Shown here: one piece after another, positions 1-61,675 of the stretch
How the letters are laid out: every line of letters begins with the position of its first letter
Position numbering within the stretch: the stretch's first letter is position 1
Source: Thioalkalivibrio sp. ALE14
GTDB taxonomy: Bacteria; Pseudomonadota; Gammaproteobacteria; Ectothiorhodospirales; Ectothiorhodospiraceae
Reading direction: 5' to 3'
Length of the DNA stretch: 61,675 bases
Assembly (NCBI RefSeq): GCF_000376845.1
Contig: NZ_AQXY01000019.1
Coordinates: 1-61,675, forward strand
Made by a program: the position numbers and the translations under genes
The notes under the pieces: model-generated
The model's database searches: none
What the model saw: only the letters and a program-made list of their open reading frames with translations
Told to the model about the DNA's origin: nothing

Positions 1-30
1 GCTGTATCGCGCTCGTCTCTGCTTGCTCAC
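1..30 (-). CDS. IS3-family transposase OrfA, first 10 codons only
   Basis: The GTG start is the complement of bases 28-30, and an SD-like GGAGGTG lies just upstream. The ten visible residues (MSKQRRARYS) match the start of the right-hand copy at 61448. The gene is truncated by the window edge. OrfA of IS3 elements is the helix-turn-helix DNA-binding part of the OrfAB transposase, made by frameshifting into OrfB. Confidence 0.8.
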   Translation of the reverse strand, partial: MSKQRRARYS

Positions 31-95
31 ATTCACCTCCAGTTACCCATCTAGTGTGGCTTAACTGGGGTGTCCGCTGTCATTGGACCACTTCA
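1..95 (-). mobile_element. Left partial IS3-family element (one terminus)
   Basis: Bases 1-95 are the exact reverse complement of 61383-61477. Reading leftward the element starts with TGAAGTGGTCCAATGACAGC at base 95, a TGA...-type end consistent with IS3-family termini, and runs into the start of a transposase OrfA gene. The rest of the copy lies outside the window. It interrupts the gene at 83-814. Confidence 0.9.
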
Positions 96-814
96 AACCT
101 TATCGAGATGCGCTTTCGGCCCTCGACCGTGCCGTGAACGATCCGCGCGATTCAGGAGGGCTTGTTACTGCCCATGAACTCCAGGGCATGGCGCACATGG
201 ACTTAAAATTCTTCGCCGCCGATATCCGGCAGCGGTGCGAATGGGCAGAGGACCCGGCGCAGCCTGGAACGATCGGACTGCTGATCGAAGCGCTTCATGC
301 CTTTTCAGACCGTGACCCCGCTGCGCCACGGTTACTCGGATTCCTTTCTGTAGAACTGAAGCTTCTCCGCATCCCGGAGCCGGCGCCGCTTGTAGCCTGG
401 CAAGTCGAGTTCCTGACGAATGCCGCGACGGCAGAATCTTGGCACGGTTGCGATCCGGTGACTTACTTTGCGTCGAAGCCCCCGGCACGCTCCAGTCTGC
501 AAAGCTGGGTAACGGCCGCGCTTGTCATGCGGAGCGTAGAGGTATTGGCGCAGAGCTACGGCCTATCACGAACCCGGAACGAAGCGTCCCCGCCGTTCAG
601 CGCTTGTGACGCCGTTTCGGAGCACCTCCAGTCCTGTGGCTGGGCTTGGTTCAACTACGAAGCTGTACGGAAGCGATACCAGGCAGCGAGGAAATGGACC
701 CGTGCGAGCGTGCCTTGGTGGCACCAGGAGAAACCCGCCGCTTGCATTCAGGTTTACTTGGGAACAACAGCGCTTGAGGCAGCGACGATGGATCTGGAGA
801 CACTGCCATTCTAG
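83..814 (+). CDS. Hypothetical island protein, 5' end probably replaced by the IS
   Basis: This is a 243-residue reading frame of unknown function. The only usable upstream start (TTG at 83) and the first four codons lie inside the IS end (to base 95), and an in-frame TAA sits at 62-64. The native start was therefore probably lost, or is the internal ATG at 188. The sequence is rich in Trp, Ala and Leu, with no signal peptide, no membrane segment and no motif I recognise. It precedes the AlpA-like gene in the same direction, as hypothetical genes often do in prophage and satellite control regions. It could be a pseudogene remnant. Confidence 0.5.
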   Translation: MDHFKPYRDALSALDRAVNDPRDSGGLVTAHELQGMAHMDLKFFAADIRQRCEWAEDPAQPGTIGLLIEALHAFSDRDPAAPRLLGFLSVELKLLRIPEPAPLVAWQVEFLTNAATAESWHGCDPVTYFASKPPARSSLQSWVTAALVMRSVEVLAQSYGLSRTRNEASPPFSACDAVSEHLQSCGWAWFNYEAVRKRYQAARKWTRASVPWWHQEKPAACIQVYLGTTALEAATMDLETLPF

Positions 815-829
815 GCTGACTGTGTGCGG

Positions 830-846
830 AAACCGCTTGCGGTTTT
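830..846 (+). terminator. Small hairpin with T run after the hypothetical gene
   Basis: AAACCGC-TT-GCGGTTT is followed directly by T and AG, and lies 16 bases after the stop at 814. The stem is only 7 bp and the T run is part of it, so this is a weak intrinsic terminator candidate. Confidence 0.4.
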
Positions 847-880
847 AGTACACGACTCCCGCCCGGTCACGCCACAAGAT

Positions 881-909
881 GCCTCCATAGTCACAACGGA
901 GGCCACGCG
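881..909 (+). promoter_or_regulatory. Hairpin that hides the ribosome binding site of the AlpA-like gene
   Basis: GCCTCC (881-886) is exactly complementary to GGAGGC (898-903). The latter contains the GGAGG Shine-Dalgarno sequence placed 7 bases before the ATG at 910. An 11-base loop separates them. Folding would block translation of the excisionase-like regulator, and of the coupled helicase gene. Confidence 0.5.
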
Positions 910-1110
910 ATGACCGACAATCCCAACATGACACCGCAGCAGGCAGCCGAATACCTGCACCTATCTCCCCGCACGTTGATCCGCTGGCGGAATATGCGCA
1001 AGGGGCCGCCTTGGGTGAAGGCGGGCCAGCGCATCATCTACCGCCGCGCAGACGTCGACGCATGGCTGGCGCGTAACGTTCAGGCTCCCGTTGCGGAAGT
1101 CACGGAATGA
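910..1110 (+). CDS. AlpA/excisionase-type HTH DNA-binding protein
   Basis: This 66-residue protein is almost entirely one winged HTH of the MerR/AlpA (HTH_17) type: 'TPQQAAEYLHLSPRTLIRWR' at residues 8-27, then 'GPPWVKAGQRIIYRRADVDAWL' features typical of AlpA and phage Xis proteins. In phage satellites such proteins activate or assist excision and early transcription. It has a strong GGAGG site, possibly sequestered in a hairpin. Its stop overlaps the start of the helicase gene (ATGA, 1107-1110), so the two are translationally coupled. No integrase accompanies it in this window. Confidence 0.85.
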   Translation: MTDNPNMTPQQAAEYLHLSPRTLIRWRNMRKGPPWVKAGQRIIYRRADVDAWLARNVQAPVAEVTE

Positions 1111-2735
1111 GCGCCGCCAAAAGAAACGCCCCGGCCGGGGGAGCGGCGCGGGGCGGTGGGGGTGAGCAAGGTCAAGCGCTCACGGATGAGCATAGCATGC
1201 GCCCGGCCATCGTGGCCGAAGACGGGCAGATGCACGAGATCCTTGACCAAGTGGACCGGGAACTAGGGCGAATGGCGAGCCCTATCATGTTCCGGAAGGG
1301 ATCGGCGCTGATCGCGGTCACTGATATCGACCGCCGCCCTGGTCTTGAGACGCGACAGACCGCACCCGCCACGTTGCTCCTGACCAACGCCGCAACGAAG
1401 GACCGACTGACTCGAGCGGTCGCCTGGGAGAGGTGGGACCAACGCTCCCAGCGCTACAAGCCTATCGACTGCCCCACCGCCTATGCCCAAGCGTTCCGCG
1501 AGCGCGGCGAGTATCGCCACGTGCCGGAGGTCACGGCCTTGACCGAGTGCCCGGTGGTGTTGTCATCCGGTCGGGTCATTCACCAGGGTGGATATGACCG
1601 TCATACCGGTATCTACGTGGCGCGCGCCCCGCGCGGCGGCTACCGGATCGGGGGAGACGATCGTGCGGACGCTGAGAAGGCGCTCGAGGTCCTGACCGAT
1701 CTGCTGAGCGAGTTCCCCTTTTCTACCGACGCTGACCGAGCGGCGGCGATTGCCGGCATCATGACGCCGGTGGCGGCCCCAGCCATCCCAGCATGCCCCC
1801 AGCATCTCGCGACCGCCGAGGCCCCCGGAGCCGGCAAATCGACCGTATGGGATGCCGCCGCCATCCTCGCAACCGGCCGGCCCATGCCGGTGATCTCCTG
1901 GCCAGCCGATGCCGCTGAACAGGAAAAACGACTGCACGGGGTGTTGCTGGCTGGGGATCCCCTGGCCAGTCTCGACAACCTGGAACGGCCATTGGCCGGC
2001 GAATCGCTCTGCCAGGCGACGACGCAGCCAGTCATGACGGTGCGCGCGTTGGGGGCGTCGACCATGTTCCAGGTGCCCGCGCGGGTGGCGTTATACGCCA
2101 CGGGCAATAACGCCGTGGTGCGAGGTGACATGACCCGCCGGACGGTCCTCACGCGCCTGTCCACGGGAATGGAGCGGCCCGAACGCCGGCCGTTCAAGCG
2201 GGACATCCTCGAGCACGTCCGCAGTCATCGCGACGAACTCCTGATGCACCTTACAGCGATCCCGCGCGCGTACCTAGCAAGCGGGCGACCGGACGTCGGG
2301 CTCGCGCCCTACAACTCTTTCGGCGAGTGGGACCTTCTGGTGCGGCGCCCGCTCGTCTGGCTGGGCCTTCCCGATCCCCTTGAGCCAAGTGAAGCACTGC
2401 GTGCGGATGACCCCGACCGTCAAGACCACCGTGCGCTGCTCAAAGCCTGGCACGCGCACTTCGGCTCCGAGCCGCAAACGGCGGCCGAAGTGATTCGTGC
2501 CGCTACGGACACCGTACGGCGCATGGACGGCACCACCGCAGATGATGCACCGGACTTGGCTGATGCGGTAACAGCCGTGTGCACGAGTGGTCGCGGGCCG
2601 AAGCTGGACGGGCGCACGCTGGGCTTTGCGCTTCGGCGTTACGTCGATCGTATCGAGTCGGGCTTGCGGCTCGAGCGCGCCGGCACCGACCGGACCAACA
2701 CGGGCCGTTGGCAGGTGCGCGAGGTCGGGGCATGA
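1107..2735 (+). CDS. D5/primase-C-like helicase ATPase (satellite replication protein)
   Basis: The protein has 542 residues. A Walker A motif APGAGKST lies at residues 239-246, a Walker B-like LASLDN at about 286-291, and a sensor motif YATGNN at 331-335 followed by an Arg-rich 'GDMTRRTVLTRL' segment. TGNN...GD..RR is characteristic of the superfamily 3/D5-type helicase domains of phage and plasmid primase-helicases. I see no zinc-binding or archaeal/eukaryotic-type primase domain in the N-terminal 200 residues, so it is probably helicase only. It is translationally coupled to the AlpA-like gene and followed by the iteron-like repeats, the arrangement expected for a satellite replication module. 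The exact family is uncertain. Confidence 0.7.
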   Translation: MSAAKRNAPAGGAARGGGGEQGQALTDEHSMRPAIVAEDGQMHEILDQVDRELGRMASPIMFRKGSALIAVTDIDRRPGLETRQTAPATLLLTNAATKDRLTRAVAWERWDQRSQRYKPIDCPTAYAQAFRERGEYRHVPEVTALTECPVVLSSGRVIHQGGYDRHTGIYVARAPRGGYRIGGDDRADAEKALEVLTDLLSEFPFSTDADRAAAIAGIMTPVAAPAIPACPQHLATAEAPGAGKSTVWDAAAILATGRPMPVISWPADAAEQEKRLHGVLLAGDPLASLDNLERPLAGESLCQATTQPVMTVRALGASTMFQVPARVALYATGNNAVVRGDMTRRTVLTRLSTGMERPERRPFKRDILEHVRSHRDELLMHLTAIPRAYLASGRPDVGLAPYNSFGEWDLLVRRPLVWLGLPDPLEPSEALRADDPDRQDHRALLKAWHAHFGSEPQTAAEVIRAATDTVRRMDGTTADDAPDLADAVTAVCTSGRGPKLDGRTLGFALRRYVDRIESGLRLERAGTDRTNTGRWQVREVGA

Positions 2736-2747
2736 CCGCCGCGCCCC

Positions 2748-2869
2748 GTGCAGGAGATGCAGGAGATGCAGGGGGTATTCCCGGCTCATATCTATATTTC
2801 GCACCGCGCTGCGTTTTTCACGCGTTGGTGGTGCACATCTCCTGCATCTCCTGCATCTCCTGCACCACC
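2748..2869. repeat. Iteron-like repeats with inverted 24-bp arms; candidate replication origin
   Basis: CAGGAGATG occurs twice in tandem at 2751-2768, and its complement CATCTCCTG three times in tandem at 2836-2862. Bases 2748-2771 and 2842-2865 form a perfect 24-bp inverted repeat. The right cluster is itself bounded by GGTGGTGCA (2827-2835) and TGCACCACC (2861-2869). The spacer and the flank at 2881-2920 are AT-rich for this genome. The position just after the helicase gene fits an origin bound by an initiator; an operator is the alternative. Confidence 0.55.
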
Positions 2870-3063
2870 TCCCGTTCCCTCCTGTTCCTTATAAACCTAT
2901 TTCCTATTCCCGAAAGGGAGTGCAAGGCATTGAATAAAAGGGCTTCGATGCGGAAGGCAATCCAGAAGGGTCCTTCTGTACCCCTTCGGGGTGCGGGTGC
3001 GGAGAGGCGCGATCTTTCGCTAGTTAGTGGGCTTGGAATATAGGCAACCAATCGGGTTACACC
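2870..3063. other. Non-coding stretch before the terS-like gene, with small hairpins
   Basis: Together with the repeat cluster this is a gene-free gap of 328 bases. An AT-rich tract lies at 2881-2940. AGAAGG-GT-CCTTCT (2964-2977) and ACCCC-TTC-GGGGT (2980-2992) form tight adjacent hairpins. Upstream of a terminase small subunit this is also where a cos or pac site would be expected. I see no gene I trust here. Confidence 0.4.
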
Positions 3064-3663
3064 ATGACAACCGAAGACGAAACCACCGCCGAAGATGGCC
3101 AGGGAACGGACCTGTCACTTTTGCCAGAGCCGGACCTTGGCGTCCGCGTTCGGCCGGCGCAGTTCGCCAGGATGCTGAACGTCTCCAGGCAGACGGTATC
3201 CCGGTGGGTCAAAGAAGGCCGTGTGCTGTTGGACCCGTCCGGCCGCCTGGATCCAGTAAAGGCCACCGAGCGGGTGCTACAGCATGGCGACCCGGCCCGC
3301 CTGCGCGCCACGCTCCTGAAACCCGTCATGGATGACATGGCCGGGCTGCGAACGGAACTCCGGGCAGCCCTGGAACGTGCCGAAGCGGCCGAAAACCGAG
3401 CCGAACGCGCCGCCGCTCGGGCGGACGAGGCGGCTGCTGATCTGAACATGGTGGAGGGCGCTGCGGATGGCTTCATCGCGGCCCTGGCGAATGACGAGGA
3501 TCAGCGCTCACGGCTCGCTGGATTGGGCGCAGATGAGGCCCGCGACTACCTGGAAGAACTCTACATGCAGGCGATGGACGATGCGTGCCCGACACCGGAA
3601 GAGGGGGGCGGGGTTGCGCCTGCGCTTGAACATCGAACAGACCATGAGGTGAGCCATGACTGA
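3064..3663 (+). CDS. Terminase-small-subunit-like (Nu1-type) HTH protein
   Basis: This is a 199-residue protein. Residues about 29-75 form an HTH ('QFARMLNVSRQTVSRWVKEG') followed by 'DPSGRLDPVKATERVLQ', the pattern of phage Nu1/TerS DNA-packaging proteins and related phage DNA-binding proteins. Residues about 85-130 are an Ala/Glu/Arg-rich coiled coil, which would suit oligomerisation. The C-terminus is acidic. In satellites a private TerS redirects the helper phage's large terminase to satellite DNA, and that role fits the absence of TerL here. The stop overlaps the start of the next gene by 8 bases. No good SD precedes the ATG. A plain transcription regulator is the alternative. Confidence 0.6.
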   Translation: MTTEDETTAEDGQGTDLSLLPEPDLGVRVRPAQFARMLNVSRQTVSRWVKEGRVLLDPSGRLDPVKATERVLQHGDPARLRATLLKPVMDDMAGLRTELRAALERAEAAENRAERAAARADEAAADLNMVEGAADGFIAALANDEDQRSRLAGLGADEARDYLEELYMQAMDDACPTPEEGGGVAPALEHRTDHEVSHD

Positions 3664-3928
3664 AGTGCTGAACGTACCCATCCCGCCCGGGTTGAGTGAG
3701 ACCACCATTCACGACCCCAACAGCACCGGGATCGTGGCCGGGCAATTCCTGGTCGCGTACTCCGATGCGACGCAAACGGGGGGCATCTTCCCCATGCAGG
3801 ACGATCAGCGGCGTTGGACCCTGATACACCCCGTCACAAAGGAGCAATTCGTGGAGATTTGCTCGGACTACGTGACCGCCGAGGTGAAGGCCAGGACGTC
3901 CGAGATTATCGACGCCGTAAGGCATTGA
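3656..3928 (+). CDS. Small hypothetical island protein between terS-like and capsid genes
   Basis: This 90-residue acidic protein overlaps the preceding gene by 8 bases, so it is probably co-translated. It has 'QFLVAYSDATQTGGIFPMQDDQRRWTLIHP'-like composition with several aromatics and no membrane segment. I do not recognise a family. Its place between a TerS-like and a capsid gene suggests a virion or packaging accessory role, such as a small head protein, but nothing in the sequence proves it. Confidence 0.6.
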   Translation: MTEVLNVPIPPGLSETTIHDPNSTGIVAGQFLVAYSDATQTGGIFPMQDDQRRWTLIHPVTKEQFVEICSDYVTAEVKARTSEIIDAVRH

Positions 3929-4150
3929 CGTACACGGCCGGGGCTGCGATAGTTTCAGGCAATACCACGTTTCGGGGTTGATCCCCTGGCGACCCGGCTT
4001 CAATCGCTTCGCGCTTGGCCAGAGCCCAGGAAAGCAGCCCCGAACGAGGACCGGGCCCCGGTCTGGAAGGTGATCGCGCAAACCTGCGGGTTTGCTGCTT
4101 TCAACGTTCCGGCCGGGGCTTTGTCGTTCCGGTCGGTGGAGAACCGGAAC
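3929..4150 (+). other. Structured leader upstream of the capsid gene
   Basis: No convincing gene is present. Three self-complementary elements occur: GGGG-TTGAT-CCCC near 3974-3987, the palindrome ACCGGG-C-CCCGGT at 4050-4062, and GCAAACC-TGC-GGGTTTGC at about 4077-4094. GGCCGGGGCT appears near both ends. A GTG at 4070 could extend the capsid frame upstream, but the ATG at 4151 has the better SD. It may be a translational control leader for a highly expressed capsid gene. Confidence 0.4.
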
Positions 4151-5965
4151 ATGCAAGCGACACAGACCCGACAAGCTGACCTGGACGCGGCCCAAGCCTC
4201 CACCGAGGCAATGACCGTGCCGCTGGTCCTGTCCACCGAGTACCCCGTGGATCGGGGTGCCTTTGTGGAAGTTCTGGACCACACCCCGGATGCGGTGGAC
4301 TTGAGCCGCGCTCCCCTTCCGTTCATCGAATCCCACGATACCGGGCGCCTGAATATCGGCGTCGTTGAGGCCTTGCGCCTGGCGGGCGGCAAGCTGCGTG
4401 GTGAGCTCCGGCTTGGCACCAGTGATCGTGCCCGCGAACTGATGCAAGACATCCTCGCCGGGATCGTGACCAGCGTCTCCATTGGATACCGGATCTTCGA
4501 CGAACAGCCAGGAGCGGATCAGCGCACCGTCCGGGTGACCCAATGGCAGCCCTTCGAGGTCTCCGCCGTGAGCGTGCCGGCCGATCCTACTGCGGGTTTT
4601 TTCCGCGCCGAACCGATGAGGAATACACCGATGAGTGACCACGAGAACGAAACCAACGATCCAAACGCCAACCAGGTGACGCTCACGCGCTCCGAACGCC
4701 GCAGCCAGAACCGTGCAATGGAAGCGGAACGCCAGCGCGTCTCGGACCTGCTTTCCCTAGGCGAATCGTATGCCCGCTTCGGCGGTCGGGAACTCGCGAA
4801 GCAGGCCATTCGCGAAGGCCGGGACGATGACTGGTTTTGCCAGACAGTACTCCAGCGTGCGGATTCCAGCCATATGCCGGCCCCGGAGCCATACACGGGC
4901 AAGCGAGATGCCTTCGGAAACCCCGCTGGTGGGCTCGGCTTGTCAGGCCGGGAAATGGAGGACTATTCCCTGGTTCGGGCGATCCGGGCCATGGTCGATC
5001 CGAAGGCATCCAAGGATGCCGGGCTGGAACTTGAGGCCTCGCGAGCGATTGCAAAGGAACTGCGCCGGGAGACCTCGGGCATCCTGGTGCCGGTAGAAGT
5101 CCAGCGGCAGTACGCCAACCGTTCCACGCTCACGGCCGGTGCGACCGGCGCGGCCCTGGTGGGTACTGACCACATGGGCGGCTCGTTTATCGACGTTTTG
5201 CGCAACAAGTCCGTTGCTTTCGAGGCCGGCATGCAGCCGATGCGGGGCCTTCAGGGCGACGTGTCCATCCCGATGAAAACGGACTCGAGCACCGGGGCTT
5301 GGATCGACGGCGAAGGCGAAGCGCTTTCACTGACCGCGCCAACGCATGGGGCCGTTACCTTGTCGCCGCGAACGGTGGGCGGTCTGGCCTCCTTCTCCCA
5401 TCGGATGCTGCTTCAGAGTAGCCCCGAGGTTGAAGGGCTGCTGCGAAATGACCTCGCAAGCACTTTGCAGGTGGAGATCGACCGCGCCGTCCTTAACGGC
5501 TCGGGCACCGGCAACGAGCCCACCGGCATCCTGAATGCCGCCGGGATTGGGTCGGACACCTACAGCGGGAGCCCGACGTACAGCGACATTATCGGCGCGG
5601 AGACCCTGGTGGCCGACCACAATGCCGACTCGCCCCAGTCGATCTACGTCACTTCCCCTGCGCTGCGCGGCACGCTGAAGGGCACCGATATCGGCAGCGA
5701 TACCGGCCAGATGATCTGGACCAACGGCGGCCCTGGCGAGGGCATGATGACCGGTTACCGGGCGCTTGCCACCAAGAACATGCCGGCCGATGCCGTGCTG
5801 TTCGGGGACTTCTCGCAAGTGCTGTTCGGCGAGTGGGGCATCCTGGAATTGATGGCCGATCCGTACCACGAGTTCGAGAAGGGATCGGTGCGGGTGCGGG
5901 CGCTGTACTCCTGCGACATTGCCCTGCGGCACCCGAAGGCCTTTGCCGCGATCACGTCCGCGTAA
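4151..5965 (+). CDS. Fused HK97-type prohead protease and major capsid protein
   Basis: From the chosen ATG (GGTGGAG upstream) the protein has 604 residues. The N-terminal part is a U35 prohead protease. The expected catalytic set is visible: His in 'PFIESHD', Ser in 'VTSVSIGYRI', Glu in 'FEVSAVSVPADP'. A charged linker ('RSERRSQNRAMEAERQRV') resembles a scaffold/delta region. The C-terminal half is an HK97-fold capsid with 'QGDVSIPMKTDSSTGAW' and 'EIDRAVLNGSGTGNEPTGIL'. The protease would cleave the scaffold during head maturation. It is unusual that no portal, connector, TerL or tail gene accompanies it. Confidence 0.9.
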   Translation: MQATQTRQADLDAAQASTEAMTVPLVLSTEYPVDRGAFVEVLDHTPDAVDLSRAPLPFIESHDTGRLNIGVVEALRLAGGKLRGELRLGTSDRARELMQDILAGIVTSVSIGYRIFDEQPGADQRTVRVTQWQPFEVSAVSVPADPTAGFFRAEPMRNTPMSDHENETNDPNANQVTLTRSERRSQNRAMEAERQRVSDLLSLGESYARFGGRELAKQAIREGRDDDWFCQTVLQRADSSHMPAPEPYTGKRDAFGNPAGGLGLSGREMEDYSLVRAIRAMVDPKASKDAGLELEASRAIAKELRRETSGILVPVEVQRQYANRSTLTAGATGAALVGTDHMGGSFIDVLRNKSVAFEAGMQPMRGLQGDVSIPMKTDSSTGAWIDGEGEALSLTAPTHGAVTLSPRTVGGLASFSHRMLLQSSPEVEGLLRNDLASTLQVEIDRAVLNGSGTGNEPTGILNAAGIGSDTYSGSPTYSDIIGAETLVADHNADSPQSIYVTSPALRGTLKGTDIGSDTGQMIWTNGGPGEGMMTGYRALATKNMPADAVLFGDFSQVLFGEWGILELMADPYHEFEKGSVRVRALYSCDIALRHPKAFAAITSA

Positions 5966-6165
5966 TGTTCCGGCCCTGGAGGCGTGGGAGTGGCCCAGCG
6001 CCTCCAGGGGGGTTCCCAGTGTTTGGCATGGCATTGGGAACTTGGGATGGGCCACACCGGATGAGGGTGCTTCCTCCCCAAGTACCCTTACGGCTGCCAA
6101 CGCCGGCCCGCTGTTGGGGCAGCGGAGCTACGGCAGCCCCTAATTCTTAATGCCGAGGTAAGACG
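5966..6165 (+). other. Hairpin-rich non-coding region after the capsid gene
   Basis: CCCTGGAGGCG (5974-5984) pairs perfectly with CGCCTCCAGGG (5999-6009), and the loop contains TGGG/CCCA. A second stem, GTTCCCA/TGGGAAC, follows at about 6013-6042. Neither has a T run, so they are not classic terminators. They may stabilise the capsid transcript's 3' end. I see no coding sequence here. Confidence 0.45.
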
Positions 6166-6372
6166 ATGTTCATTGAAACCGTAGACCGCCAGCGCCGGAA
6201 CGCCGTCTACATTCGCGCCGACCGCGTGTGCGGCGTGAAGGATTGGCCGGGCATCGGTGATGCCCCGAGCGATGCCGAAGTGTTCCTTCTTGGCGCACCA
6301 GAAACGCTTATGGTCGGGGAAGCGGCCAACAAGCTTCGCCAGCGAATCGAGCAAGCCCTGGCGACGAAGTAG
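6166..6372 (+). CDS. Small hypothetical island protein
   Basis: This is a 68-residue protein with an SD-like GAGGTAAG ahead of the ATG. It begins 'MFIETVDRQRRNAVYIRADR' and ends in a Lys/Arg/Ala-rich helix. The N-terminal half looks like a short beta-rich fold and no known family is evident. It is the last rightward gene of the island and faces the two leftward genes. A small DNA-binding or head-decoration protein is possible but unsupported. Confidence 0.6.
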   Translation: MFIETVDRQRRNAVYIRADRVCGVKDWPGIGDAPSDAEVFLLGAPETLMVGEAANKLRQRIEQALATK

Positions 6373-6407
6373 GGCCGCGCCGCCTTGCGGGCCGCGTTCA
6401 AAGAATA

Positions 6408-6427
6408 GGCCGGCGCAAAGGCCGGCC
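6408..6427. terminator. Hairpin between convergent island genes
   Basis: GGCCGGC-GCAAAG-GCCGGCC is a perfect 7-bp GC stem in the 79-base gap between the stop at 6372 (+) and the stop at 6452 (-). It lacks a clear T run, but its position suits a shared terminator. Confidence 0.45.
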
Positions 6428-6451
6428 CTCGTTGAGTATCAGCGGTTTCGG

Positions 6452-6892
6452 TTAGCCGACCGGTTTCAATCCTGACGCCTTCCGGCACGCTTCCCACAAG
6501 CGGCCCACCAGTGCATCCGCTGCGGCGGTTTCCCTGCTAATCCAGAACCAGACCGCCGGCGGCGCTTCGTTGGAGTCCACCAGTAGGCTTGCCGCCTCGC
6601 TGACCGTCTGAAGACGAAGGGTGCGTTTGTCCAGTTCCTTCAGCACCTGCTCCGAGCCAGAATTTCCCTTTTCCCGCGCACCGAACTCGCGATAGAGGCG
6701 GTCCAAGAACTCCCGCCCGGCCCGAATCTCGTTTTCCGCCCACCAGTAGAGGCACTGGTCGTCGTCTACGCCGCCTTCCGCGATGTGCCCGCAGAACCGT
6801 TCGATGGTCTGCAAGCGCTGAATGCGCTTCGAGACCTCCCGGTTCCAGTCCGTGGCGGCTGCCGTTTCGTTCATGGGCTCCGAGGCATTCAT
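6452..6892 (-). CDS. Hypothetical helical island protein
   Basis: The protein has 146 residues from the ATG that overlaps the upstream gene's TGA (ATGA, 6889-6892). It is largely helical and charged ('NREVSKRIQRLQTIERFCGHI', 'QVLKELDKRTLRLQTVSEAASLLV') with a Trp-rich patch (YWWAENE, WFWI). I do not recognise a family. A longer reading frame to 7003 exists, but it would overlap the neighbouring gene heavily and has Pro/Arg-rich shadow-like sequence. It lies with the next gene in a leftward two-gene cassette opposite the capsid module, a place where satellites often carry accessory or phage-interference genes; that role is inference. Confidence 0.6.
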   Translation of the reverse strand: MNASEPMNETAAATDWNREVSKRIQRLQTIERFCGHIAEGGVDDDQCLYWWAENEIRAGREFLDRLYREFGAREKGNSGSEQVLKELDKRTLRLQTVSEAASLLVDSNEAPPAVWFWISRETAAADALVGRLWEACRKASGLKPVG

Positions 6893-7083
6893 GCGAACAC
6901 CTCCCGGGGCTGCGACTCGAGAACTCGCACCCGGCCTTCGCGGGCATGGCGTTGGTGCTCCGGGCAAAGCAAGGATTCGGTGTCGCGATCCAGCGCGACC
7001 CATTGGGTGCCGATGTTCCGGCAGCGGGTGCCGTGCGTGGTGGCCGCCTGGCAGCGGTGGGGTGATCCTTCATGGTTTGGCAT
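6889..7083 (-). CDS. Small Cys/His protein (zinc-ribbon-like, CQA..GTRC..CxxH)
   Basis: The protein has 64 residues. 'HRCQAATTHGTRCRNIG' followed about 20 residues later by 'LLCPEHQ' gives a Cys-x7-8-GTRC...Cys-x2-His pattern, seen in small phage and mobile-element proteins and probably binding one zinc. It is the first gene of the leftward cassette and overlaps the next by 4 bases. The target is unknown. With 13 bases of ATG-proximal sequence shared with no other gene, the start is reasonably secure. Confidence 0.65.
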   Translation of the reverse strand: MPNHEGSPHRCQAATTHGTRCRNIGTQWVALDRDTESLLCPEHQRHAREGRVRVLESQPREVFA

Positions 7084-7129
7084 GGCGTCTACTCCTGACC
7101 GTGATGTGACCAGGAACGCTGCCTTGTGA

Positions 7130-7150
7130 CTTTTCCGTGACCCGGAAAAG
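7130..7150. repeat. Palindrome and TGTGAC repeats beside the tRNA
   Basis: CTTTTCCG-TGACC-CGGAAAAG is a perfect 8-bp stem. TGTGAC occurs at 7105-7110 and 7125-7130, 20 bases apart, and CGTGAC at 7136-7141. Helically phased short repeats next to a tRNA 3' end resemble integrase or Xis arm sites, but no integrase is in view to support this. Confidence 0.35.
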
Positions 7151-7187
7151 AAAAGGGGTCAGGCCGAATGACCTAACCCCTTGTTTT
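7146..7187. terminator. Bidirectional intrinsic terminator downstream of tRNA-Asn
   Basis: AAGGGGTCAGG (7153-7163) pairs with CCTAACCCCTT (7172-7182) with one mismatch. Leftward it is followed by TTCTTTT, rightward by GTTTTATT. It ends tRNA-Asn transcription on the minus strand and isolates the island. Confidence 0.75.
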
Positions 7188-7190
7188 ATT

Positions 7191-7266
7191 TGGCTCCCCG
7201 GGACGGGCTCGAACCGCCGACCTAGTGATTAACAGTCACCCGCTCTACCGACTGAGCTACCGGGGA
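7191..7266 (-). tRNA. tRNA-Asn (anticodon GTT)
   Basis: Read on the minus strand, the acceptor stem TCCCCGG pairs with CCGGGGA before G-CCA, which is encoded. The anticodon loop is CTGTTAA and the T-loop TTCGAGC. The 76 bases include CCA. The 3' end faces the island, the usual geometry for integration into a tRNA gene. No second copy of the 3' end was found in the window. Confidence 0.95.
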
Positions 7267-7349
7267 ATTGGGCGCAAATCCTAATGGGGCGGGGCGGGGG
7301 CGTCAAGGAAAATCTGGCGGCTCCCCGCCTTTTGCCGTCCTTCGCCGCG

Positions 7350-8540
7350 TTACCGGTGGGTCGCGGCGAACTGGCGCAGACGTTCCAGTGCCTTGTCGAG
7401 CTGGTCAACACTGGTGGCGAAGGAAACGCGGACATGCCCCGGGGCCCCGAAGGCACTGCCCGGCACCAGGGCGACACCGACTTCGTCCAGCAACTGCTTG
7501 GTCAGGGCCACGTCCGTGTCAATGTCGGCCGCCTCCATCAGTCCGGTAACCCGGGGAAAGCAGTAGAAGGTGCCGTCCGGCATCAGGCAGTCAATACCGT
7601 CGATGGCGTTGAGCCCGTCCACCACGTGGCGGGCACGCTCGGCAAAGGCCGAGCACATGGCCACGACGCAGCCCTGGTCACCCTCGAGTGCGGCCTCGGC
7701 ACCGGCCTGGGCGATCGAGGTCGGGTTGGAGGTGCTCTGCGACTGGATCTTCTTCATCGCCGCGATCAGGTTTTTCGGGCCACCGGCGTAGCCGATGCGC
7801 CAGCCGGTCATCGCATACGCCTTGGACACGCCATTGAGGACCACGGTGCGCTCCAGCAGGTCCGGCGCCACGTTGACGATGTTCTCGAACTGCTTCCCGC
7901 CAAACAGGATGTGCTCGTACATGTCATCCGTGGCGATGACCACACGGGGGTGGCGGCGCAGGACCTCGGCGAGCTCCGTCAGCTCTTCGGCGGAGTAGGC
8001 CGCCCCTGTCGGATTGGACGGGCTGTTCAGGAACACCAGGCGGGTGTTCGGAGTAATCGCGGCCTCCAGCTGCTCGCCGGTAATGCGGAAGCCCGCTTCC
8101 TGCTCGGCGCTAACGATCACCGGGCGCGCACCAGCCAGCAGGGCGATGTCCGGATAGGACACCCAGTAGGGCGCCGGGATCACGACCTCGTCCCCGGGGT
8201 TGAGCAGGGCCTGGCAGAGATTGAAGATGCTCTGCTTGCCGCCGGAGGAGACCAGGATCTGGTCCGGGCTGAACGCGAGGCCGTTGTCGCGATCAAACTT
8301 GCGAATGATCGCGGCCTTGAGGCTGGCCGTACCGTCCACCGGAGTGTACTTGGTTTCTCCGCGGGCAAGCGCGTCGATCGCGGCCTGCTTGATATGCTCG
8401 GGGGTATCGAAATCCGGTTCTCCGGCCCCCAGCCCGACAATGTCCCGTCCCTCGGCTCGCAGCTGGGCGGCCAGCGCGCTGACGGCGAGGGTGGGGGAGG
8501 GCTGGATGCGCTGGACGCGGTCGGAAAGCTCGATATCCAA
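7350..8540 (-). CDS. Class I aminotransferase, aspartate aminotransferase type
   Basis: The protein has 396 residues, typical of the AspAT subgroup 1b / aspartate-prephenate aminotransferases. It transfers the amino group between aspartate and 2-oxoglutarate with PLP. Key features are '[13 protein letters not shown]' near the N-terminus, '[11 protein letters not shown]', the PLP-lysine segment '[19 protein letters not shown]' and the C-terminal arginine segment 'HVRVSFA'. The start is TTG at 8538-8540 with a modest GAGG upstream. It diverges from uvrB across 54 bases. Activity on prephenate or aromatic substrates cannot be excluded. Confidence 0.9.
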
Positions 8541-8594
8541 GGGGGAGGCCTCTGTGTGATCGGGTCGAAGGGCCGCGTGGGCGGTCGGGGCGAA

Positions 8595-10655
<2,061 letters not shown>

Positions 10656-61382: not shown

Positions 61383-61675
61383 TGAAGTGGTCCAATGACA
61401 GCGGACACCCCAGTTAAGCCACACTAGATGGGTAACTGGAGGTGAATGTGAGCAAGCAGAGACGAGCGCGATACAGCCGGGAGTTCAAGGCCAACGCGAT
61501 TGCGATGGTCGAGAGCCAGGGCTATGGCTGCACGGAGGCGGCCCGGCGGCTCGGGATCAACCGGAGCATGCTGTCCCGCTGGCAGCGTGAGGCGCGGCGC
61601 AAGGCGGCCGGCGAAGCCGTTACTGAGCCGGCCTCGAACGGTCAGGAACAGGAGTTGCGGCGGCTGCGCGAGGAG
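61383..61675 (+). mobile_element. Right partial IS3-family element
   Basis: The element begins TGAAGTGGTCCAATGACAGC at 61383, identical over 95 bases to the inverted left copy, and runs off the window end. It was inserted exactly at the edge of a perfect palindrome (61364-61382). Confidence 0.9.
61448..61675 (+). CDS. IS3-family transposase OrfA (truncated by window end)
   Basis: Seventy-six residues are visible from the GTG at 61448, with GGAGGTG upstream; an ATG at 61446 would stop at once (ATG TGA). 'YSREFKANAIAMVESQG' and 'CTEAARRLGINRSMLSRWQ' form the HTH_Tnp_1 domain that binds the terminal repeats. A leucine-zipper-like helix starts at the end ('ELRRLREE'), as expected in IS3 OrfA. 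The downstream OrfB integrase is outside the window. Confidence 0.9.
   Translation, partial: MSKQRRARYSREFKANAIAMVESQGYGCTEAARRLGINRSMLSRWQREARRKAAGEAVTEPASNGQEQELRRLREE

Follow-up and report, generated by a model that had tools for sequence, protein, structure and literature searches.

The question raised by the locus described here is how a chromosomal island could use a phage head of which it appears to encode only some of the parts. The island occupies the left end of contig NZ_AQXY01000019.1 of Thioalkalivibrio sp. ALE14, a stretch of 61,675 nucleotides that we term the window (contig C19 of a genome in 31 contigs, 3.02 Mb), the first base of which already lies inside the island. It contains genes for a protein resembling the small terminase subunit (TerS) and for a protease fused to an HK97-type major capsid protein, with no recognised portal or large terminase subunit (TerL). 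Our answer is that it is probably a satellite of the type of the phage-inducible chromosomal islands (PICIs) of Gram-negative bacteria (GN-PICIs), neither a decayed prophage nor a capsid-forming PICI (cf-PICI), and that this satellite is real and apparently complete, though interrupted by an insertion sequence (IS). The class assignment rests on anatomy and gene order, set against published descriptions of GN-PICIs. A preliminary description of the DNA had already proposed a satellite-like island with TerS and a protease-capsid, and this proposal holds.

An integrated element interrupted by an insertion sequence

The 3' end of the tRNA-Asn gene that bounds the island has one further exact copy genome-wide (in a search allowing up to three mismatches), located on another contig, C22, beside an intact integrase gene (Table 1). 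Both contigs end in a multi-copy IS3-type element. Bases 1-95 of the window are repeated at eight further places in the genome, the match stopping at query base 95-96 in seven of them and at 105 in the eighth, and contig C22 from base 283 down to its start represents the other end of the element, eight of the nine other matches ending at query base 283-287. The two ends form terminal inverted repeats and AAC is present on both flanks (window 96-98; 284-286 in L018, the C22 locus); inverted repeats together with a 3-bp target duplication are the pattern expected from a single insertion. Another copy of the same IS end lies at 61383-61477, near the other end of the window.

The C22 flank is found in 11 of the 13 genomes of the genus sample, that of ALE14 included, and in five of the seven foreign loci fetched it stands beside tRNA-Asn, both island flanks adjoining at an intact tRNA gene, that is, at an empty site. 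At the tRNA-Asn site of one relative (G022) we observe a different element of about 7.7 kb (L144 1314-9087); its integrase is 37% identical to that of the island, the remaining genes of which have no match in it. Given the exact 48-bp attachment (att) repeat, the AAC duplication and the empty sites in five relatives, the parts on the two contigs are most likely halves of one element, which by arithmetic from the att and IS positions measures about 8.6 kb without the IS. The size of about 7 kb given in the preliminary description thus applies to the 7.1-kb segment in the window, a real segment and the larger piece of the element, and the integrase reported there as missing is seemingly absent because the IS splits the assembly. 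Without the IS the order would be att-int-ORF1-alpA-pri-ori-terS-orf90-protease/capsid-orf68-(two reverse genes)-att at tRNA-Asn.

These observations bear on the possibility that we are dealing with an ordinary prophage, decayed or truncated by the IS, from which portal, TerL and tail genes have been lost. Such a view can appeal to the position of the IS within the island and to the association, in phages, of this capsid family with an upstream TerS-TerL-portal series: among the best 80 of 427 capsid relatives, which constitute the viral loci compared, 46 have 2 kb or more of sequence between the start of the locus and the capsid, and 42 of these have a portal within 6 kb upstream (the four exceptions are L034, L041, L066 and L089, of which L034, L041 and L089 were inspected by eye). 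However, att, int, origin, alpA, pri, terS and capsid are all present and open, the terS module is common to 18 loci without recognised portal or TerL, and the region beyond the IS, where portal and TerL genes were looked for, holds the att copy and the integrase, the IS interior itself being absent from the assembly. Decay, raised as an alternative from the outset, is accordingly very unlikely.

Head genes without a recognised portal or large terminase

Nine open reading frames (ORFs) of the window were scanned with Pfam and PHROG profiles. At the sensitivity used, these profiles and the ORF list give no recognised portal or TerL in the window, as first described; likewise, the TerL, portal, tail and lysis set of an ordinary phage or prophage is not seen among the nine profiled ORFs, nor do they yield a connector or HNH match. 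Apart from ORF 83-814 and the primase and capsid genes, the only ORFs of at least 200 residues in the island segment are two antisense frames, one of which was searched against PHROG and gave no match. The corresponding listing for nine bounded segments of eight islands comprises 74 ORFs of this size; of six unassigned ORFs tested, one being the window antisense frame, one is a primase and five are unmatched. Hidden Markov models (HMMs) of TerL and portal, built from VP882 and CRP-811 (plus L020 for TerL) and hence representing three sources, all of them phages or prophages of a single kind, gave no match in the 17 other loci (15 genomic loci, L034 and L151), the absence in L034, L119, L120, L126 and L129, which are among the loci cut by contig ends, applying to the assembled part.

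A recurrent TerS module followed by different capsids

The evidence that this gene arrangement recurs comes from the TerS family. An iterated HMM seeded with the window TerS and L023 matched 12 ORFs, 10 of which lie upstream of TerL in phage or prophage loci; against solved structures the window TerS gave two weak helix-turn-helix (HTH) matches. A TerS profile search of genomes returned 15 loci, which together with the viral contig L034, L151 and the window make 18. By their record titles these 15 belong to Thioalkalivibrio ALE31, Dechloromonas, Rhodocyclaceae, Chromatiaceae (L119, which appears to be one contig with L023), Zoogloeaceae, Zoogloea (two), Pseudoxanthomonas, Thiobacillus (three, of which two share an assembly) and Thiomonas, a further three being titled only Proteobacteria or Pseudomonadota. 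An integrase is found upstream of terS in 11 of the 15 genomic loci as well as in the window and L151. The recurrence of the gene order in other hosts without recognised portal or TerL, which the preliminary description had named as the sign of a real class, is therefore borne out among the 18 loci compared.

A major capsid protein follows terS in 11 of the 18 loci and belongs to three Pfam families. The family of the window is present in the window, L126 and L130 (by PHROG) and in L034, L119 and L129 (by an HMM built here), Phage_capsid_4 in L116, L121 and L128, with its PHROG equivalents in L151, and a lambda-E type capsid with a ClpP protease in L118. Direct repeats at a tRNA bound L118 and L128 (46 bp each) and L019 (47 bp, 9.0 kb); weaker bounding repeats occur in L116 and L117 (14 bp), L123 (17 bp) and L121 (15 bp, from tmRNA to a place 16.8 kb off), those of L127 are longer, up to 116 bp and about 14.4 kb apart, and no repeat of at least 14 bp was found at the tRNA in L124, L125, L126 and L130, the last of which borders, behind its capsid gene, on a host gene resembling murB (by eye). 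As a separate observation, L019 (7911-16910) carries an integrase, AlpA, a primase/helicase-like ATPase and a protease-capsid, together with tape-measure and minor tail genes recognised by eye, and gives no TerS, TerL or portal match.

The module is sparsely distributed in the collections searched. With the TerS profile A5 we found 3 of 370 genomes of the class sample, its own included; profile A4 recovered L034 alone from viral contigs, and terS as a single-protein query of viral contigs gave 16 pattern matches and no relative. The capsid was found in 6 of the 370 genomes (own included) and, in 47 genomes of the order, only in that of the window; as a single-protein query of genome contigs it gave 10 pattern matches and no relative. 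The L130 capsid matched 21 plasmid records, every one below 60% identity.

The conserved part of the protease-capsid fusion begins near residue 28, and His89, Ser137, Glu163 and Ser165 are invariant in all 17 aligned rows. A single satellite-specific capsid clade was considered and is unsupported, the seven satellite capsids (including that of L019) requiring five changes in the tree, at least two of them forced by well-supported branches, which argues for more than one capture. These capsids are nevertheless more clustered than expected from shuffled labels (a value as low arose in 2 of 500 shuffles), and those of the window, L126 and L129 group at 83; four of the seven satellite rows are flagged as long branches, so that placement is weak and the results of the tree are soft.

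Replication gene and origin

Relatives of the replication gene pri are present in L117, L118, L126, L128 and L130 (30-41% identity). Its product was first described as a D5-like helicase: a primase/helicase-like character is supported by phrog_29234 and phrog_19930, 'D5-like' is not strictly shown, and there is no Pfam family above the cut-off and no match among solved structures. In PICI origins an A+T-rich region directly behind pri lies between two sets of iterons (PMC6092414). The repeat cluster of the window resembles these origins in its sequence, two iteron sets enclosing a spacer of lower GC content. Inverted 25-nt arms (2748-2772 and 2841-2865), 100% complementary and made of 9-nt iterons, belong to arrays of 9-nt period (2748-2772 and 2836-2870) separated by 68 nt; the spacer has 53% GC against 64% for the scored stretch 910-7190, and the single-strand DNA fold of 2735-2880 gives z = -7.6 against 200 shuffles. 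Eleven pri-terS-type regions were scanned, window included, and in seven of them (the window, L117, L118, L120, L126, L128 and L130) inverted arms of 13-34 nt lie 39-86 nt apart. Spacer GC, at 34-38% in L117, L118, L126 and L128, 50% in L130, 53% in the window and 59% in L120, is in all seven lower than that of the scored stretch of the same island. By eye, the spacers of L117, L118, L126 and L128 share a GTGTCA-like stretch and GACAAAA, followed by a TATA-like sequence.

Gene content

The AlpA regulator, repeat cluster, TerS-like HTH protein and protease/HK97 capsid fusion beside a tRNA, all named in the preliminary description, are confirmed by profiles, repeats and the tRNA-Asn gene, which is the sole match of an Rfam scan of bases 1-7300. 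The listed start of ORF1 falls within the IS, which ends at base 95, so that its natural 5' end lies across the IS; no relative was found among the other islands searched. Behind the inward-facing int, alpA and pri share one direction, as do the following genes up to the right end, where orf183 and orf64 are reversed.

Table 1. Features of the island in the window and on contig C22
Feature	Position	Strand	Evidence or remark
End of multi-copy IS3-type element, interrupting the island and breaking the assembly	1..95		Repeat matches; inverted repeats; AAC duplication
ORF1, function not assigned	83..814	+	PF10910 weak, below cut-off; listed start inside IS
AlpA-like HTH_17 regulator/excisionase	910..1110	+	Pfam E 4e-14; phrog_66 excisionase/regulator 3e-12
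Primase/helicase-like replication protein (pri)	1107..2735	+	phrog_29234 3e-95 (function unknown); phrog_19930 DNA polymerase/primase 7e-15
Probable replication origin	2736..2935	+	Inverted iteron arrays around spacer
TerS-like HTH protein (small terminase subunit)	3064..3663	+	phrog_57 terminase small subunit, 3e-9
orf90, function not assigned	3656..3928	+	Among loci searched, matched only by own genome's copy
S78 protease-HK97-type major capsid fusion	4070..5965	+	Peptidase_S78 9e-8; Phage_capsid 1e-33; phrog_617 1e-118
orf68	6166..6372	+	45% relative in ALE31 island
orf183	6452..7003	-	93% identical protein in ALE31 island
orf64	6889..7083	-	88% identical protein in ALE31 island
att repeat, 48 bp	7191..7238		Exact copy at contig C22 1699-1746
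tRNA-Asn(GTT), integration site	7191..7266	-	Empty in 5 relatives
Intact tyrosine integrase, 416 aa, facing inward	contig C22 299-1549 (L018), next to att copy		phrog_1, 4e-59

Relation to known satellites

Several features place the island with the GN-PICIs: an integrase with a specific att, alpA and a replication gene that run the same way behind an inward-facing int, and iterons at the origin. This order, continued by the late genes, agrees with that described for GN-PICIs and not with that of prophages (PMC10111431). With EcCICFT073 and PmCI172 it shares int, alpA, pri, an origin whose two iteron sets enclose a spacer of lower GC, the one-direction order, the optional terS, the frequent major capsid gene and dependence on helper proteins. 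It differs in that the GN-PICIs named in 2018 come from Enterobacteriaceae and Pasteurellaceae, measure 10-20 kb and are helper-induced, whereas this island, known from sequence alone, is smaller (8.6 kb), has the protease fused to the capsid and terS paired with it, and its relatives belong, by record titles, to Thioalkalivibrio, Dechloromonas, Zoogloea, Thiobacillus, Thiomonas and others.

The view taken in the preliminary description, that capsids are usually borrowed except by cf-PICIs, overlooks how often GN-PICIs have a capsid gene of their own. A capsid gene is present in 21 of 29 reference PICIs, although the passages concerned do not state the absence of portal and TerL for each of the 21, and capsids are the commonest late genes of GN-PICIs, thought to be captured from helpers (PMC10111431). 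EcCICFT073 and PmCI172 are among the carriers, and small heads are formed by PmCI172, which has a capsid homologue, though their cause is unproven (PMC6092414). In the Gram-positive SaPIbov5 the capsid homologue Ccm functions with the helper portal, redirecting helper heads nucleated there and filling pentamers beside the helper protein; SaPIbov5 has no TerS and no identified protease, and this island has both (PMC8569155). The 'minimal hijack design' formerly suggested is thus close to a known kind, of which the island represents a new lineage and variant.

The cf-PICIs likewise encode their own TerS, protease and capsid, and the island could be such an element minus portal, TerL and connectors; but the cf-PICI gene set, as summarised in PMC10690885, further includes portal, connectors, TerL and HNH, none of which was found among the nine window ORFs, TerL and portal being equally unmatched in the 17 other loci, and the three capsid families at one place favour repeated capture over a single loss. 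We regard this origin as highly improbable. The phages with phrog_617-type capsids (VP882, CRP-811 and phiHAP-1) share the protease-capsid fusion at 33-35% identity, and VP882 and CRP-811 encode TerS, TerL and portal beside it, as the island does not.

P4-like satellites are marked by the Sid/Delta/Psu set and the P4 alpha primase; no P4-type gene had a Pfam match in the window profile scan, no search aimed at P4 markers being made, and a P4-like satellite was considered and set aside. Tycheposons may include similar elements.

Use of the capsid and the source of the helper

Which functions would the two head genes then serve? Most simply, the pair would allow the island to mark its DNA for a helper TerL and to supply shells. 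In the cycle that we propose, a helper phage would trigger AlpA, int would excise the island and pri would replicate it from the iteron origin; the satellite TerS would recruit helper TerL to the DNA of the island, and shells of the satellite capsid protein, matured by the island's own protease, would be assembled on the helper portal, the resulting heads taking helper tails. AlpA induction and replication by pri and ori have been tested in E. coli PICIs (PMC10111431 and PMC6092414). That a GN-PICI-type satellite uses its own TerS and capsid on a helper portal in this way is, in our judgement, fairly likely.

The same satellite might instead package its DNA in helper heads and keep the capsid as a captured late gene that interferes, by mixing into helper heads or poisoning them. 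In accord with this, packaged EcCICFT073 DNA is of phage size, and transfer of this element does not require its capsid gene c1499 (PMC6092414), so that the capsid may not be needed; capsids are, as noted, the commonest of late genes presumed to be helper-captured (PMC10111431); and in the present set satellite capsids sit on long branches and are replaced by tail genes in some relatives. Interference sits less well with the conservation of the invariant protease-domain residues throughout the 17 rows, with the recurrence of unrelated capsid families at the same place and with the joint change of capsid and TerS C-terminal half described below, and we consider it somewhat unlikely.

The use of the island's own capsid on a helper portal also has to accommodate several points that count against it, among them the dispensable c1499 and the limits of the TerL and portal models given above. 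In seven of the 18 loci no capsid was recognised downstream of terS: in L120 an S49 protease precedes the contig end, L117 has a minor tail gene, and in L122, L123 and L124 nothing was recognised. In L125 (10989-14423, by PHROG) and L127 (10930-14040, by homology) a tape-measure-like gene stands where others hold the capsid; a tape measure carried by a satellite could change the length of the tail. The origin pattern is not plain in four of the eleven regions (L034, with many scattered repeat copies; L116, with 23-nt arms just 8 nt apart; L121, whose 13-nt arms are separated by 37 nt; and L125), the A+T enrichment of the window spacer is modest, and L120 and L130 match less cleanly. Finally, the host genome has no match to GpA-type or PF03354 TerL and only a weak phrog_2 match (E 2e-4, in a 1154-aa frame), and no resident helper was found in it, which indicates that the helper for this strain probably comes from outside. 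Searched against 50,697 phage records, terS had no match and hence points to no candidate helper. Elsewhere, phrog_2 matches of E 1e-18 or better occur in three of nine other genomes searched, and GpA-type TerL in three of 13 host genomes, away from the islands. The genome of Thiomonas bhubaneswarensis DSM 18181, which carries L130, contains, on another contig (L146 9766-18033), a prophage head module with TerS, GpA-type TerL and portal; its capsid, of lambda-E type by eye, is unlike that of L130, a further point on the adverse side.

Exchange of capsid and TerS

The window forms a close pair with the uninterrupted ALE31 island, L116: identity is 91.6% across 2990-3476 and 95.0% across 6459-7059, and no match was found in the interval. 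The two TerS proteins are 92% identical in residues 1-130 and 36% in the remainder (for terS, dN, the nonsynonymous rate, is 0.18 and dS, the synonymous rate, 0.42), and the capsids belong to different Pfam families. The natural reading of the alignment is a cassette swap that would begin inside terS. A sharp breakpoint within terS is seen in this pair only. The alignments of L126 with L128 and of L117 with L118 likewise stop within terS; at 76% and 67% nucleotide identity, however, these pairs are divergent enough that a faster-evolving C-terminal half of TerS could by itself explain where they end; between L126 and L129 and between L125 and L127, which have similar cargo, the alignment runs through terS. 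In L116 the start of pri also matches that of the window and is followed (8090-9633) by a different primase/helicase-like ATPase, so that, judging by the alignment, the replication gene seems to have been exchanged too.

The two halves of TerS are taken here, by analogy with lambda Nu1, to serve DNA binding and TerL binding. We tentatively suggest a distinct 'split-head' satellite lineage, in which the shell (capsid and fused protease) and the DNA-selecting subunit would be satellite-made and the portal, motor and tail helper-made; the exchanged unit, 'TerS C-terminal half plus capsid', might match the island to the motor and portal of one particular helper, and the N-terminal half of TerS would go on recognising the island's own packaging site.

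Implications

That such PICIs carry capsid genes is already published, and the general kind is known. Judged against the open-licence literature only, what is new are the hosts outside the families named in 2018, the pairing of terS with capsid and the exchange of unrelated capsids. The findings locate PICI-type satellites with a capsid gene among environmental beta- and gammaproteobacteria, and point to a natural exchange of unrelated capsid genes behind a single TerS module. Should the swap cassette prove real, it would address why satellites carry a shell gene and no portal, a question open since the E. coli example proved dispensable, and it would provide a direct test of which head parts must match, TerS with TerL and capsid with portal.

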